Source: a virus
Strand: one strand, 5' to 3'
DNA length: 40,896 nucleotides
Virus record (IMG/VR): IMGVR_UViG_3300027706_000261
Location: 1 to 40,896 of that record
Part shown: one piece after another, positions 2,499-9,765 of the stretch
How the letters are laid out: every line of letters starts with the position of its first letter
Position numbering within the stretch: the stretch's first letter is position 1
The notes under the pieces: model-generated
What the model saw: only the letters and a program-made list of their open reading frames with translations
Database searches by the model: none
What the model was told of the DNA's origin: nothing
Made by a program: the position numbers and the translations under genes

Positions 2499-3003
2499 AC
2501 GTTCCGAACTGACCGAGGCGATTCGGGAGACCGTGGCGGCGTTTTGCGCCGCGGGGCGGCGTTTCTGGAACCGCGACATCGTCGATACCGTGATCGAACA
2601 GAACGGCGACTTGTTCGCCGACCTCGGCCGGCAGCTGGCGCGGGAGAAGCTCTTCGACCTTACCCGTCGCGTGATGAAAACTGCGGCCGAAGTCACCGAG
2701 GCTGAGGCGCGCCTGCAACTCGGCCTGGACCTCCCGGAATTCGAGATGCCCAACTTGATCGCCGTGCCCGTCGACATCTTGAATCCTCTGAATGGCGACT
2801 GCGAGTGGGTGCCCGTGATGCACGCGACGGTCGCGGACCTGGATTCCAACCTGCGCATGCTGGATGTCCAGATCGCCGCAGATCAGCGTAGGCGCCGCCA
2901 CATTGCCATGCTGCGGCAGCGCGTGGTGGCGGTCGTCGGAGAGAAGACGGAGCTAACGGTTGCGGAAGCGGCGGCCCTGGCGCGGGAGATGCAATCGGCA
3001 TGA
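2485..3003 (+). CDS. hypothetical protein in replication operon
   Basis: A 172-residue protein, mostly predicted helix. The first half (AIRETVAAFCAAGRRFWNRDIVDTV) looks like a winged-helix or small helical bundle; an IPV/DILNPLNGDCEWVPV segment sits in the middle; and the C-terminal 50 residues are rich in Arg, Ala and Gln and are probably a coiled coil (DQRRRRHIAMLRQRVVAVV). It overlaps the ParB-like gene by 14 bases with GGAG 10 bases upstream of the ATG, and its stop overlaps the helicase start (ATGA). A helicase accessory role is suggested only by this coupling. Confidence 0.7.
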   Translation: MRTSRRSELTEAIRETVAAFCAAGRRFWNRDIVDTVIEQNGDLFADLGRQLAREKLFDLTRRVMKTAAEVTEAEARLQLGLDLPEFEMPNLIAVPVDILNPLNGDCEWVPVMHATVADLDSNLRMLDVQIAADQRRRRHIAMLRQRVVAVVGEKTELTVAEAAALAREMQSA

Positions 3004-4400
3004 ACCCGCCTCCGACAGTCTCGGTGCTGCGGACTCTCCCCTGGCGGCATCAGGCGGAGGCCGTCGCTTTCGTCCGGCAACTGTACCGGCGCGGCAAACG
3101 CGGCGCCATGATCGCGGCCATCATGGGCACCGGCAAATCGGCCATGACGGTGTACCTCTGCACTGAGGAAGGCTTTCAACTGATCCTAATCGTCTGCCCC
3201 CTCCGCGTGGTGCAGGTGTGGCGTCCGCAGTTCGAGATGCACTCGAACGCCCCGTTCATGGTCGTGCCGCTCGATGATTCCAACTCGAATGTCCGCGCGA
3301 AGCGGGATGAGGCGGAACGCCAGATCAAACTGGCCAAGGCGCGGGGCGTGCCGGTGGTGGTCGTTATCAACTACGATTCCGCCTGGCGCACACCGTTCGC
3401 GGAATGGGCCATCAAACAGAAATGGGACTTGGTGGTGGCCGACGAGATCCACCGCTGCAAGGCTCCCGGTGGTAAGGCCAGCCGATACCTTGCGCGCCTG
3501 GGGAAGTTCGCACGGTTCCGGTTGGGCCTCAGCGGCACGCCGATGCCCCATTCGCCGCTCGACGTGTACGGCTACTTCCGCTTCATCGATGCCACGGTTT
3601 TCGGCTGGTCGTTCAACCGCTTCCGGCAGCACTTCGCCGTGATGGGCGGCTACCAGAATCACCAGGTCGTGGGCTACAACAACCTCGACGAGCTGAACCG
3701 GAAGTTCTACTCCGTCACGTTCGCCTGCGGCAAGGACGTCCTCGATCTGCCGCCGGAAGTGCACATCACCTACAACTGCCACCTCGGCAGCGAGGCGCGC
3801 AAGGTCTATCGGTCGCTCGAGCGGGATCTCATTGCCGAAGTTCAGTCCGGTGAGGTCACCGCCGCGAACGCCCTGGTAAAGCTGCTCCGGCTCCAACAGA
3901 TCACGGGCGGTTACGTTCGCACGGACGACGGGCAAGAGATCCAGATCGATTCCGCCAAGATGAACCTCCTGCGCGACGTGCTCGAAGACATCGCGCCCGA
4001 CGAGCCGGTGGTGGTCTTCTGCCGGTTCCACCGGGACCTCGACGCAGTGAACCGCGTTGCGGATGAAGCGGGCCGGCGATCGCTCGAGTTGTCCGGCCGG
4101 ATCGACGATCTGAAACGCTGGCAAGCCGGAGAGGCGCCGGTGCTGGCTGTCCAGATTGATTCCGGCGGCGTCGGCGTCGATCTCACCCGGGCGCGCTACT
4201 CGATTTACTATTCGCTCGGCTTTTCGCTGGGCTCCTACGAACAGAGCCTGGCGCGCATTCACCGCCCTGGCCAGACACGGCCCGTGGAATACATTCACCT
4301 GCTCGCCGCGGGCACCGTCGACGAGAAGGTCATGGCCGCGCTGGCGCAGCGCTCCGATGTCGTCAACAGCGTTCTCCAGCAGATGAAAGGCGGCCAGTAA
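3000..4400 (+). CDS. SNF2-type DEAD/DEAH helicase
   Basis: A 466-residue superfamily 2 ATPase. Walker A is MGTGKSAM (residues 42-49, K46), motif II is DEIH (148-151), SGTPMPHSP is motif III, and ARIHRPGQ (418-425) is the SNF2-style motif VI with arginine fingers. The short length fits phage SNF2-like helicases without accessory chromatin domains. Such proteins translocate on double-stranded DNA and may remodel replication or recombination intermediates. It is translationally coupled to the preceding gene, and the next gene begins on the base after its stop. The class is certain from the motifs; the exact role in the phage cycle is inferred. Confidence 0.93.
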   Translation: MNPPPTVSVLRTLPWRHQAEAVAFVRQLYRRGKRGAMIAAIMGTGKSAMTVYLCTEEGFQLILIVCPLRVVQVWRPQFEMHSNAPFMVVPLDDSNSNVRAKRDEAERQIKLAKARGVPVVVVINYDSAWRTPFAEWAIKQKWDLVVADEIHRCKAPGGKASRYLARLGKFARFRLGLSGTPMPHSPLDVYGYFRFIDATVFGWSFNRFRQHFAVMGGYQNHQVVGYNNLDELNRKFYSVTFACGKDVLDLPPEVHITYNCHLGSEARKVYRSLERDLIAEVQSGEVTAANALVKLLRLQQITGGYVRTDDGQEIQIDSAKMNLLRDVLEDIAPDEPVVVFCRFHRDLDAVNRVADEAGRRSLELSGRIDDLKRWQAGEAPVLAVQIDSGGVGVDLTRARYSIYYSLGFSLGSYEQSLARIHRPGQTRPVEYIHLLAAGTVDEKVMAALAQRSDVVNSVLQQMKGGQ

Positions 4401-5807: not shown

Positions 5808-6560
5808 ATGGCAAAAGAAGTCGTGAAAAAGGAAAAGGAAACCGCGATCAGCCCTTTCGTGATTTTCAAAACGGAGATTGCTGAAATCCGCGAAGCTATG
5901 AACGCCAACGTCGGGGACAACGGCCTCACCGCCGGTGACCTCGAACGCATCAAGATCCCCGCGGGCGGCGGCACCGCCTGGACCATCCAGGGGCTCGACG
6001 GCGAGGAGATGGTGAAGGAACTGTCCGGGATCATCATCGCCTGGCGCGATACCCGGGCCTATTGGAGCGTGCCGATGGAAGAGTCCGACGGCAACATGCC
6101 CCCGGACTGCTACTCGCTCGACGCGCGCACCGGAATTGGTGAGCCTGGCGGGAACTGCCACAAGTGCGCATTCGCGGAGTTCGGTAGCGATCCGAAGGGC
6201 GAAGGCCAGGCATGCAAGCTGATCCGGCAGTTGTTCCTCATCCGCGAGGACAACCTCCTTCCGGAGATCGTGAACCTGCCGCCCAGTTCGCTCAAGCCCG
6301 CGCGGCAGTATTTCCTGCGCCTCGCATCAAAGGGAGTGCCGTGCTACAGCGTCATCACCAAGATCGGTCTGGAGAAAACCAAGAACGGTCAGGGCATCGT
6401 CTACGCGAAGGCCGCGCTCACCTCCGGCGGCCGCCTTACCCCCGAGCAAACGCAGCGGGCGAAGGACTACGCTGCCATGATCGACCCGTTTCTGAAGGCC
6501 GCGCCGCCGGTGAAGGTGGCCAAAGACGTCGTCGAGACGGTTGAGGGTGAGGTGGTGTAG
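5808..6560 (+). CDS. four-cysteine phage protein, SSB-like position
   Basis: A 250-residue protein starting MAKEVVKKEK, with AGGAG 9 bases upstream of the ATG. Cysteines C101, C117, C120 and C136 form a C-x15-C-x2-C-x15-C pattern ending in GQACK, a likely zinc site. It is followed by LFLIREDNLLPEIVNLPPSSLKPA-type sequence and a beta-rich segment. The family occurs in phage replication modules in the place where a single-stranded DNA-binding protein would be expected, and the C-terminus is acidic (VVETVEGEVV), as in many SSBs. The zinc site is inferred from the cysteines; the SSB role is a hypothesis. Confidence 0.7.
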   Translation: MAKEVVKKEKETAISPFVIFKTEIAEIREAMNANVGDNGLTAGDLERIKIPAGGGTAWTIQGLDGEEMVKELSGIIIAWRDTRAYWSVPMEESDGNMPPDCYSLDARTGIGEPGGNCHKCAFAEFGSDPKGEGQACKLIRQLFLIREDNLLPEIVNLPPSSLKPARQYFLRLASKGVPCYSVITKIGLEKTKNGQGIVYAKAALTSGGRLTPEQTQRAKDYAAMIDPFLKAAPPVKVAKDVVETVEGEVV

Positions 6561-6564
6561 CGGG

Positions 6565-9132
6565 ATGGAGGCTGACCGGCATGCAATCCGGCAGTTCCTC
6601 GAGCGCGTCCACGGTCCCGAGCCTACGGGCTGGCTCATCCTGTGGACGCGCCAGGATAAAGCGACCCGGGCGTTCAACTTGGGCGAGGAGGGCGCGCTCG
6701 ATCAGGCGGTCGAATACTGCGCCGCGAGGGCCTCCACCTTCGACGTGTACGCCGCCGTCGGCCTCCAGCACGAAAGGCCCGCCAACAGCAGTCGCGGAGC
6801 GGAGGCGGGCGTTTCCGTGCTTCCGGGCCTTTGGGCCGACGTCGATATCGCGGGTGCCGCGCACAAGGCCGAAGCATTGCCGCCAACCGAGCAGGATGCT
6901 CGGAGTCTCATCGATACCGCAGTCCTGGAGCCGAGCCTAGTTGTGCACAGCGGGTTCGGACTCCAGCCCTACTGGCTTTTCCGTGAGCCCTACCAGATTG
7001 AGAGCGAAGACGAACGGAAGCAGTTGAAGTCGCTCTCAACGCGATTCCAGTTGAACCTTAGGCTGCGCGCCAATGTGCGGGGCTGGACGATGGACTCGAC
7101 CGCGGACCTGTGCCGTGTGCTCCGGGTGCCCGGCACGTTCAACCACAAAGTCGATGGCGACATCCGGATGGTCACCGCCGAGTACGCCGATCATGCCTAC
7201 AACCTCGCTGACTTCGAAGACCTTCTCGGTGGCATTGAGGATCCGGGGGATGGCGAGCGTGTGACGCAGCCCCCGTTGGATCTGCCCGCGGCCAAACTGC
7301 CTCCGATCCTCGACGGCTGCGTCTGGATGCGTCATTGCCGCACCGACGCTGCCGCCCTTGCCGAGCCCGAGTGGTACCGGATGTTGACGGTGGTCGCCAG
7401 GTGCGAGGATGCAGAGCGGTGGGCGCATGAACTGAGCCAGGCCTATCCGAAATACTCCCGGCGAGAAACGCAGCGAAAACTGAAGCAGGCGTCCAGCGAC
7501 AAGGTGGCGCCGGTGACGTGCGCCTACGTGCAGTCGAACCTCAATGGCGGCCGCTTTTGCGCGGAGTGCCTGTTTCGCGGCAACGTGAATTCGCCCATCG
7601 CGATTGGCAGGATCGAGGGGTTTGAAGCCGCACCCGCACCCGAACCCCCGCCCGCGTCCGGCGATGATCCTCCGCCACCGGAACAACCGCAGCCCACCGA
7701 GGCCGCGGCAACGAAGATTGAAAAGTACACGGACCTGGGAAATGCGCGAAGGTTCGTCGCCCGCTATCGCGGCACTGTTTTGTATTGCGAGGCATGGGGC
7801 CGATGGTTTCACTGGGACACCGCGCGATGGGCCGAAGATGAGCGGCTCGAGGTCTTTGCCCGCGCCACCGATCTGATTCGCAGCTTGTATGCGGTCGCCA
7901 AGAAGATCAAGGACGAAGACGAGCGGAAAGCGTTCCTCAGCCACCTGATCAAGTCGGAATCGCACCGCTCGATTCACGCGATGGTCACGCTGGCGAAATC
8001 GGATCGCACCGTGGCGCGCCATCCCGATGATTTCGACAACAACCAGTGGCTGTGCGCGGTCAAGAACGGCACGCTCGATCTGCGGACCGGGCAGCTGCGA
8101 TCCCATGACCCGAAGGACATGATCACCAAGCTCGCCCCCGTCGTGTACGACCCTTCGGCGCGATGCCCGAACTGGCTGGAATTCCTGAACATGATCATGC
8201 TCGGCCGGAAAAGTCTGGTCGATTTTCTGAAGCGCGCCCTGGGGTCGAGCCTGACTGGAATCACCAGCGACAAGGCGATGTTCATTCTCTACGGGCCCGG
8301 TGGCGACAACGGCAAATCCACCATGGTCGAAGTCATGGAAATGCTTCTGGGGAACTACGCCCGGCGAACGCCGGTAGAGACGTTCCTCAAGAAGCGGGAG
8401 GGCAGCATTCCGAATGACATCGCCCGTCTCCGCGGCGCGCGGTTCGTTTGGGCCGCCGAAAACGATCGGGGCGTGCGGCTCGCCGAATCCCTGATCAAGG
8501 AAATGACGGGCGGCGACCGGATGGCCGCGCGCTTCCTGCACGGCGAGTTCTTCGAGTTCATGCCCACGTTCAAGATCTGGTTCGCGACGAATCATAAGCC
8601 CACGATTCGCGGCGACGCAGCCATCTGGCGGCGGCTGAAGCTCGTGCCCTTCGACTACACCATCCCCAAGGATCAGCAGAAGAAACGTCACGAGGTCATG
8701 GCGATGTTCCAGTCAGAACTGCCGGGCATTTTGAACTGGGCCATCGAAGGGTGCTTGGAGTGGCAGCGTGACGGGCTGGGCGTGCCGGAGGAAGTCATTA
8801 ACGCGACGCGGGAGTACGAGTCGGAACAGGATACGTTCTCGATGTTCCTGGAAGAGAAGTGTGTGCGCGCGCCGAATGCGCGGGTGCTTTCGCTGGCACT
8901 TTACCGCGAATACAAAACCTGGGCCGAGGAGCATGGGGAGACACCGGCCAGCCACAAAACCTTCGCGTCTCTGATGAGCGAACGGGGATTTGCAAAGTCG
9001 AAAACCATGAAGGGCGCCCTTTATTCCGGCGTCGGTCTTCGGACCGAAGACCACTACGATACGCCGAAGGCGGCGCAAACGACGCCGAGGCAAACACGCT
9101 TTGATCGTGACGATGACGGTGAGGAGGTTTGA
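6565..9132 (+). CDS. primase-helicase (AEP-type primase + D5/P4-type SF3 helicase)
   Basis: An 855-residue replication protein. The N-terminal third contains WADVDIAG (about 90-97), the DxD metal motif of archaeo-eukaryotic-type primases, and further on RVPGTFNHK, as in RepB-like prim-pol domains. A proline-rich linker (about 355-385) separates it from a D5_N-like region and a superfamily 3 helicase domain with Walker A GPGGDNGKST (about 577-586) and downstream WFATNHKPTIRGDAAIWRR, the P4/D5 sensor motif. It would prime and unwind DNA at the phage origin. The start is ATG 6565, with GAGGTGG about 10 bases upstream; an in-frame TTG at 6541 would lie inside the previous gene. The 189-base gap after it holds the repeat cluster. 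Confidence 0.93.
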   Translation: MEADRHAIRQFLERVHGPEPTGWLILWTRQDKATRAFNLGEEGALDQAVEYCAARASTFDVYAAVGLQHERPANSSRGAEAGVSVLPGLWADVDIAGAAHKAEALPPTEQDARSLIDTAVLEPSLVVHSGFGLQPYWLFREPYQIESEDERKQLKSLSTRFQLNLRLRANVRGWTMDSTADLCRVLRVPGTFNHKVDGDIRMVTAEYADHAYNLADFEDLLGGIEDPGDGERVTQPPLDLPAAKLPPILDGCVWMRHCRTDAAALAEPEWYRMLTVVARCEDAERWAHELSQAYPKYSRRETQRKLKQASSDKVAPVTCAYVQSNLNGGRFCAECLFRGNVNSPIAIGRIEGFEAAPAPEPPPASGDDPPPPEQPQPTEAAATKIEKYTDLGNARRFVARYRGTVLYCEAWGRWFHWDTARWAEDERLEVFARATDLIRSLYAVAKKIKDEDERKAFLSHLIKSESHRSIHAMVTLAKSDRTVARHPDDFDNNQWLCAVKNGTLDLRTGQLRSHDPKDMITKLAPVVYDPSARCPNWLEFLNMIMLGRKSLVDFLKRALGSSLTGITSDKAMFILYGPGGDNGKSTMVEVMEMLLGNYARRTPVETFLKKREGSIPNDIARLRGARFVWAAENDRGVRLAESLIKEMTGGDRMAARFLHGEFFEFMPTFKIWFATNHKPTIRGDAAIWRRLKLVPFDYTIPKDQQKKRHEVMAMFQSELPGILNWAIEGCLEWQRDGLGVPEEVINATREYESEQDTFSMFLEEKCVRAPNARVLSLALYREYKTWAEEHGETPASHKTFASLMSERGFAKSKTMKGALYSGVGLRTEDHYDTPKAAQTTPRQTRFDRDDDGEEV

Positions 9133-9136
9133 GAAC

Positions 9137-9308
9137 AACCCGTCATGCCCTATCACTTAAGCCCTTTAGATTCAGTGACTGCATATGACGGATGACGGAT
9201 TATGACGGATTCTCCCATTTTGCACACATGGCGCGCGCACGCGCGCACACACCTGAGAGCTAAATGCGAAAACCCGTCATAACCCGTCATCCGGCATTGA
9301 TCCGTCAT
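9137..9308. repeat. ATGACGG repeat cluster, candidate origin or operator
   Basis: Seven copies of ATGACGG lie in about 170 bases: three on the plus strand (9185, 9192 and 9202, each ATGACGGAT) and four on the minus strand (AACCCGTCAT at 9137, 9271 and 9281; TCCGTCAT at 9301). Between the two groups is a 22-base perfect alternating purine-pyrimidine tract (9231-9252), and a relatively AT-rich stretch lies at 9150-9184. Clustered short repeats beside a primase-helicase gene are typical of iteron origins, but operator sites for the MerR-like regulator downstream are an alternative. The repeats are directly seen; the role is inferred. Confidence 0.6.
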
Positions 9309-9321
9309 GGAGAGGTTGGCT

Positions 9322-9765
9322 GTGGATATTGAAGCTGTGCTCGACCGGCTCATGGAAGCGAGCGTCTCAGTTTGGCTGGACGCCGAGGGCAAATTGCGCA
9401 TCGACAAGGACGCGCCCGCGGACCTGAAGGATCTCGTCCGGCAGCACAAGCAGGAATTGACGGACGTGCGGAAAGCGCAGGCCGTGATGAACCGTCCGGG
9501 CATGCGCAGCATCCGCTTGCCATTGGGTCACCCTGCCGTCGCCTATCCGCTCGGCGCGGATCTGGATGAGATTCGCTGGGCGATGAAAGTGCTTCGCATG
9601 GATTCGATGCCGTTAGTGATCAATGACGAAGGGTTGGAGTGGATCAGCCCCGAGGAGTGGCGCCGCCGTCAGGTGGCCAGGATCTTCGCGGAACAGCGGC
9701 AGGAGCGATTGAAGCAAGGGGCTGAGGTAGTGGATCGGCAACCCCTGAAGAGGCGACGGGCATGA
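9322..9765 (+). CDS. TubC N-terminal docking-domain-like protein
   Basis: A 147-residue protein. Residues 1-50 (VLDRLMEASVSVWLDAEGKL... then DLKDLVRQHKQEL) match the TubC_N fold: a helix, a WLD..GKLRI hairpin and a helix ending HKxEL, best known as a docking domain in NRPS/PKS proteins but also found in phage and plasmid proteins. The remainder is helical and basic (EEWRRRQVARIFAEQRQERLK). GTG 9322 was chosen because GGAGAGG (9309-9315) lies 6 bases upstream; ATG 9307 has no ribosome-binding site and overlaps the last ATGACGG repeat. The stop overlaps the nuclease start (ATGA). A protein-protein adaptor role near the primase is an inference. Confidence 0.7.
   Translation: MDIEAVLDRLMEASVSVWLDAEGKLRIDKDAPADLKDLVRQHKQELTDVRKAQAVMNRPGMRSIRLPLGHPAVAYPLGADLDEIRWAMKVLRMDSMPLVINDEGLEWISPEEWRRRQVARIFAEQRQERLKQGAEVVDRQPLKRRRA

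Follow-up and report, generated by a model that had tools for sequence, protein, structure and literature searches.

Convergent ATGACGG repeats 3' of a primase-helicase gene as a likely replication origin in a phage

The cluster of ATGACGG repeats located directly 3' of the primase-helicase gene of this phage is very probably its replication origin, read by the phage's own primase-helicase; there are no binding or replication data. Both the origin reading and the choice of the primase-helicase as the likely binder rest on a repeat design shared with other phages, on wing residues of the protein that track the repeat word, and on structural matches of its winged-helix domain. The repeats, their geometry, the composition of the gap between them, the wing-iteron co-variation and the predicted domain fold were all established computationally.

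Results

The window analysed was a complete virus record of 40,896 bp, within which 15 copies of ATGACGG were counted, against 7.3 expected from shuffles. Seven copies lie within 170 bp, three direct (9185-9191, 9192-9198 and 9202-9208, + strand) and four inverted (9140-9146, 9274-9280, 9284-9290 and 9302-9308, − strand); as only about 0.03 copies per 170 bp would be expected at the shuffle rate, this number is far above chance. One further copy (9113-9119, +) is present within the end of the primase gene, with the same offset in close relatives. The remaining seven are single and dispersed, and no second cluster was found in the 40,896-bp record. A sequence-only reading had reported seven copies, three direct and four inverted, beside the primase-helicase gene and had considered chance very unlikely. 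The positions (9140-9308) and the improbability were both confirmed, and the outcome that would have refuted the claim, an equal frequency of the word elsewhere in the genome, was not observed. The perfect 22-base alternating purine-pyrimidine run that it had described between the repeats is also present (9231-9252); this Z-prone run is the longest in the record, with the runners-up measuring 14 nt.

The copies are arranged in two facing arms. The innermost left iteron (9202-9208) is accompanied by iterons at offsets of 10 and 17, and the innermost right iteron (9274-9280) by iterons at offsets of 10 and 28, all assigned by word count and geometry. At offset 17 in the right arm lies a degenerate copy, CCGGCAT (9291-9297, −), with one mismatch, assigned from its sequence and from the 17-18 bp offset peak across loci (at most one mismatch). 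The inverted copy at 9140 is an outlier, the position of which is kept in close relatives. The 65-bp inner gap (9209-9273), a putative unwinding element, contains the alternating run and is 45% AT, compared with 37% for the genome. The two arms form an imperfect inverted repeat of 44 bp with 82% complementarity, and the strand folds into a hairpin (approximately 9185-9297) with an energy well under that of shuffled sequences (DNA z = −5.9), meeting the criterion of a stem-loop of about 100 bp. The pairing arises because the iterons face each other, and the hairpin of this strand is stable both as DNA and as RNA. The repeats themselves are asymmetric and not palindromic. Rfam and tRNA searches of the element gave no match, a nucleotide search against the phage collection returned chance short matches only, and nothing relevant was found in the literature on the 7-mer word itself.

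The element (9140-9308) lies directly 3' of a gene (6541-9132, +) encoding the putative initiator, a protein of 863 aa comprising an AEP-type primase, a D5/SF3 helicase and a C-terminal winged helix, as assigned by Pfam, PHROG and structure matches. Pfam identified D5_N (8.5e-35) and, weakly, Pox_D5, and the PHROG matches were to DNA primase. The top PDB match of the whole-protein model, which is of moderate confidence (pLDDT 71), was the ASFV PrimPol (8iqi). No TOPRIM family was found in the protein by Pfam, and the whole model matched AEP PrimPol structures. The repeats occupy an intergenic gap of 190 bp ahead of a co-directional gene (9323-9765, +) with no Pfam or PHROG match. For this gene, a GTG start at 9323 appears likelier than an ATG at 9307, judging by the relatives, which begin with ATGGAAATTGA there, so that the iterons would be noncoding save for the copy at 9113.

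The primase of a Solibacteraceae MAG contig (L223) is 100% identical to that of the phage. On this sequence evidence the phage infects a soil bacterium of the Acidobacteriota and is probably temperate. Two prophage-like copies belonging to this family were observed in each of four Acidobacteria MAGs: L219 and L225 (JADLBD010000042.1), L221 and L224 (JAHCHE), L231 and L233 (JAKOTR), and L223 and L229 (JAJPJX). The iteron words differ between the copies in three of the four genomes, a number too small for a test; differing words in one genome would separate the replicons of the two prophages. The phage also encodes a ParB-like protein (1512-2498; Pfam, PHROG), near a gene for an SNF2-type helicase (3000-4400). 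The GC-skew check that the sequence-only reading had suggested gave loose support only for an origin near 9.2 kb, as the cumulative skew has its minimum at 5.3 kb and its maximum at 32.5 kb.

Related loci were sampled by a motif-led pattern scan for paired CCGTCAT, which returned many unrelated places together with clusters directly 3' of primases in L014, L031, L070, L085, L113 and L139. These primases are only 31-38% identical to that of the window. A second sampling used the primase alone, to lessen motif bias, after which any repeated 7-mer was sought; the loci obtained were pooled with some loci found through the motif itself. Extra genome sampling within the class of the host gained few close relatives. 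Significant repeats, exceeding nearly all dinucleotide shuffles, were present near the primase stop in 72 of 177 dereplicated loci, and were absent 3' of the primase gene in the other 105 of the 177 sampled. Among 175 dereplicated loci, 35% have a 7-mer with at least five occurrences in a 530-bp stretch across the primase stop; the corresponding figures are 2.2% for random windows drawn from these loci and 0.7% for sequence upstream of the gene. The words vary among loci, with a core that is mostly [ACG]TG[AT][CA], and the convergent-iteron design recurs in phages of many phyla among the relatives sampled by primase. The idea that the element had been lost in relatives without TGACGG (L148, L225, L226, L228 and L230) proved wrong, as other words are present there.

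The occurrence of repeats 3' of the primase is not a universal rule, since many primase loci, L149 included, are without them. In L149 (approximately 6553), the primase is 65% identical, the wing is altered (KTKTVMLYHG) and repeats 3' of the gene are absent; either the origin of this phage may be at another place, or the phage may be defective. Two cultured Bacillus phages carry repeats around AT-alternating runs 3' of the primase, namely AGTAACA in phi105 (L357, after 3934) and GGGTTAA/ATTAACC in A9Y (L360, after 3931), and these are likely to be unannotated origins.

Of the 57 loci that carry TG-core words, 54 show convergent orientation, with gene-near copies forward and far copies backward. 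The two innermost copies face each other across 57-102 bp (median 73.5), and offsets within the arms peak at 9-10 and 17-18 bp when up to one mismatch is allowed. The window fits this shared geometry (left 9202, 9192 and 9185; right 9274, 9284, the degenerate 9291 and 9302). The inner gap is richer in AT than its own locus in 64/64 cases, with a mean excess of 18 points, although that of the window is only 8. Alternating runs of at least 12 nt fall inside the inner gap in 29 of 33 instances, and runs of at least 15 nt are present in 28% of repeat-bearing loci versus 6% of loci without repeats, a count inflated by the close clade. Distant loci with runs of at least 15 nt include AcaML1, L191/L204, L197, L217 and L350. 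Given the AT excess of the gap and the location and recurrence of the runs, the core, as far as these sequences allow, takes two alternative forms, AT-rich DNA or an alternating run. The Z-DNA-prone tract of the sequence-only reading therefore holds up in part: it recurs in several lineages, but many distant loci lack a run and have AT-rich gaps instead, and the tract was rejected as a constant part of the design. Only position and recurrence underlie the role assigned to the alternating run, and a Z-form core under supercoiling is just one possible reading of it.

The coding part of the C-terminal winged-helix domain (approximately residues 783-837; 8887-9051, +) was delimited using AF2 models and VIA-align. 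A sequence search of the PDB with this domain found no relative, and the matches came from the fold search. The best structural match was the DNA-binding domain of human RFX1 (1dp7, Z 9.9 by VIA-align), a eukaryotic transcription factor for which no replication role is claimed. The P4 origin-binding domain (1ka8) matched with a Z of 8.4 and an rmsd of 2.8 over 75 aligned residues, a Z close to what unrelated winged helices can attain; the alignment tool cautions that values around 8 may represent a common arrangement. Residues 821-826 (K-T-M-K-G-A; codons 9001-9018, +) make up a wing, a beta-hairpin after the recognition helix in both AF2 models, and track the iteron word in the column scan described below. 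The DNA-binding domain of RFX1 reportedly reads DNA through its wing, as Gajiwala et al. are said to have found in 2000 (title cited in PMC10516667), and this agrees with the co-varying residues of the initiator being wing residues.

Among primases 62-83% identical to that of the window, the words ATGACGG, GTGACGG, GTGAAGG, GTGTAGG and ATGTAGG occur. When the winged helix was excluded from tree building, approximately 8 word changes were required, against a mean of 8.8 for shuffled labels. Between L221 and L233 (6578-6990 in each), almost every iteron has changed together, from A to G at base 1 plus flanking bases. The spacer and the next gene remain similar in this pair. In a scan of every protein column across 24 close relatives, residues 823, 824 and 826 were the three best predictors of the iteron word among all columns, and residue 821 (K or R) corresponded one-to-one with iteron base 4 (A or T) in the close relatives.

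The relationship was then tested beyond the close clade, with the orientation of the word set by geometry alone. Methionine at residue 823 was accompanied by A at base 1 in 23/23 loci, and other residues by A in 3/33. K, R and N at this residue always occurred with G at base 1, and E mostly with C (4/5). Of eight phylogenetically independent pairs separated by supported branches, seven to eight agreed with the rule and none opposed it (p ~0.01). Three M loci with no significant word (L163, L167 and L333), which had not contributed to the rule, showed ATGTA or ATGAA; their iterons were read by eye at a point when the rule already existed. The K loci L164, L166, L169 and L192 showed GTGTA. L163/L167 and L164/L166/L169 constitute a second, distant lineage with a natural M/K difference in the wing and ATGTA versus GTGTA. 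For residues 821 and 826, the rules apply in the close clade and only partly in distant loci.

We tentatively propose a wider interpretation, which falls somewhat short of an even chance of being correct: that an RFX-like wing reads the iteron by a simple code (at 823, M for A; K, R or N for G; E mostly for C) in a phage-wide class of origins, that wing and iterons have switched in concert repeatedly between close relatives, and that the place of the AT-rich unwinding element can be taken by a long alternating run, possibly one that forms Z-DNA.

Discussion

Of the two functions that the sequence-only reading had offered, an origin with iterons is supported by the 3' position, the convergent geometry, the AT-enriched gap, the wing co-variation and the tentative P4 fold match, and is still an inference. 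The other, an autoregulatory operator, is weak: the element is downstream of the primase gene, and a sigma-70-like promoter was not found in it. A broader operator model, in which a repressor or activator, either the primase or a separate regulator, for example the MerR-like protein, binds the repeats and controls the genes downstream from 9323, gains from the placement of the repeats in the 190-bp gap ahead of a co-directional gene, and the element could have both origin and operator roles. We nevertheless consider it highly unlikely: no sigma-70-like promoter was found anywhere in 8900-9500 (other promoter types were not covered), the two arms converge around a fixed AT-enriched gap, the words follow the primase wing and not a separate regulator, and the downstream gene differs (L148 and L226 versus L124) though the design is kept. 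As to the binders that had been proposed, the evidence points to the primase-helicase and not to the ParB-like or the MerR-like protein, in the absence of any binding data.

The hairpin, stable as it is in both nucleic acids, could suggest an RNA structure or a transcription terminator 3' of the primase gene. This was rejected, with only a very slight chance left to it, given that there is no terminator-like site and no Rfam family, that the iterons switch in concert as the spacer stays similar, and that outlying and tandem copies beyond the hairpin are kept. Almost no credence is given to a partition site (centromere) for the ParB-like protein of 1512-2498. The phage does encode such a domain and clustered repeats can serve as partition sites, but ParB sites are usually palindromes, whereas these repeats are asymmetric 7-mers, and in many phages the element accompanies the primase. 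That same linkage with the primase gene among the loci sampled, together with the co-variation of the repeats with the primase wing, reduces to a negligible prospect a packaging or integration site, for which the noncoding location of the repeats and the probably temperate lifestyle would speak.

For the preferred reading, a replication origin, the following mechanism may be envisaged; binding, head-to-head loading, melting and replication start are all inferences. The 863-aa protein would bind the ATGACGG iterons through its C-terminal winged helix, with the wing hairpin (residues 821-826) performing the base reading, as in RFX1. Each of the two facing arms has iterons 0, 10, 17-18 and in some cases 28 bp away from its inner edge; on these arms a pair of SF3 helicase assemblies would be loaded, oriented head to head, and would melt the 65-bp gap between them. 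The 22-nt alternating run and the modest AT excess may reduce the cost of unwinding, and the attached AEP domain would then prime both strands.

An origin of this kind is already known from P4 crr, the SaPI/SCCmec Rep origins and pRN1; what appears to be new is the wing-iteron code, together with the geometry shared among loci and the alternating core. P4 gp-alpha is likewise a primase-SF3 helicase-winged helix initiator with short repeats in both orientations (type I repeats GGTGAACA), and its crr immediately follows the alpha gene on the 3' side, as the element of the window follows its primase gene. The residue rule accommodates P4, whose repeat reads GTGAACA (core GTGAAC) and whose wing is HTKQGI: K goes with G and a bulky residue with A. 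The P4 primase is, however, of TOPRIM type (PMC4234260), whereas that of the phage is AEP, and P4 has two separate cis sites, ori and crr, in place of one cluster with convergent arms and another word. In the staphylococcal islands, the C-terminal domain of Cch2 binds repeats 3' of its own gene, as does SaPI Rep, and Cch2 and SaPI5 Rep are self-loading helicases of D5_N type (PMC7581432). A D5_N/SF3 initiator and multiple short repeats directly downstream are both found in the window; the Cch2 repeats differ in containing AAGTG, and neither a wing-to-repeat rule nor an alternating core is described in the portion of that source consulted (PMC7581432).

The ORF904 protein of pRN1 is a PrimPol-SF3-winged helix protein, and a 100-bp stem-loop 3' of its gene is needed for replication; a similar stem-loop origin has been proposed for phage BIP-1, and the pRN1 paper reports no iterons and gives the recognition motifs as unknown (PMC4234260). 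The window shares the stem-loop of about 100 bp 3' of a PrimPol-SF3-winged helix gene, but its stem is built of iterons, and distant loci retain the iteron spacing with other gap sequences. Acidithiobacillus phage AcaML1 has an element with this same layout: three copies of CTGACGG, an alternating run of 20 nt and two copies of CCGTCAG directly 3' of its primase, all unannotated; it differs in its word, and its primase is ~42% identical. The classical plasmid iteron origin of RepE or pi type, with tandem direct repeats of 17-22 bp beside an AT-rich region, is not matched by the window, which has 7-mers in convergent arms.

PrimPol-helicase initiators occur widely across phages, islands and plasmids, and their recognition motifs are mostly unknown (PMC4234260). 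Because the wing and the DNA word are swapped in natural pairs, the binding code could be tested with natural proteins. If the interpretation is true, the role of an alternating Z-prone tract at an origin would be directly testable, the primase sequence would predict origins in many phage genomes, and the replicon compatibility of co-resident prophages could be forecast.
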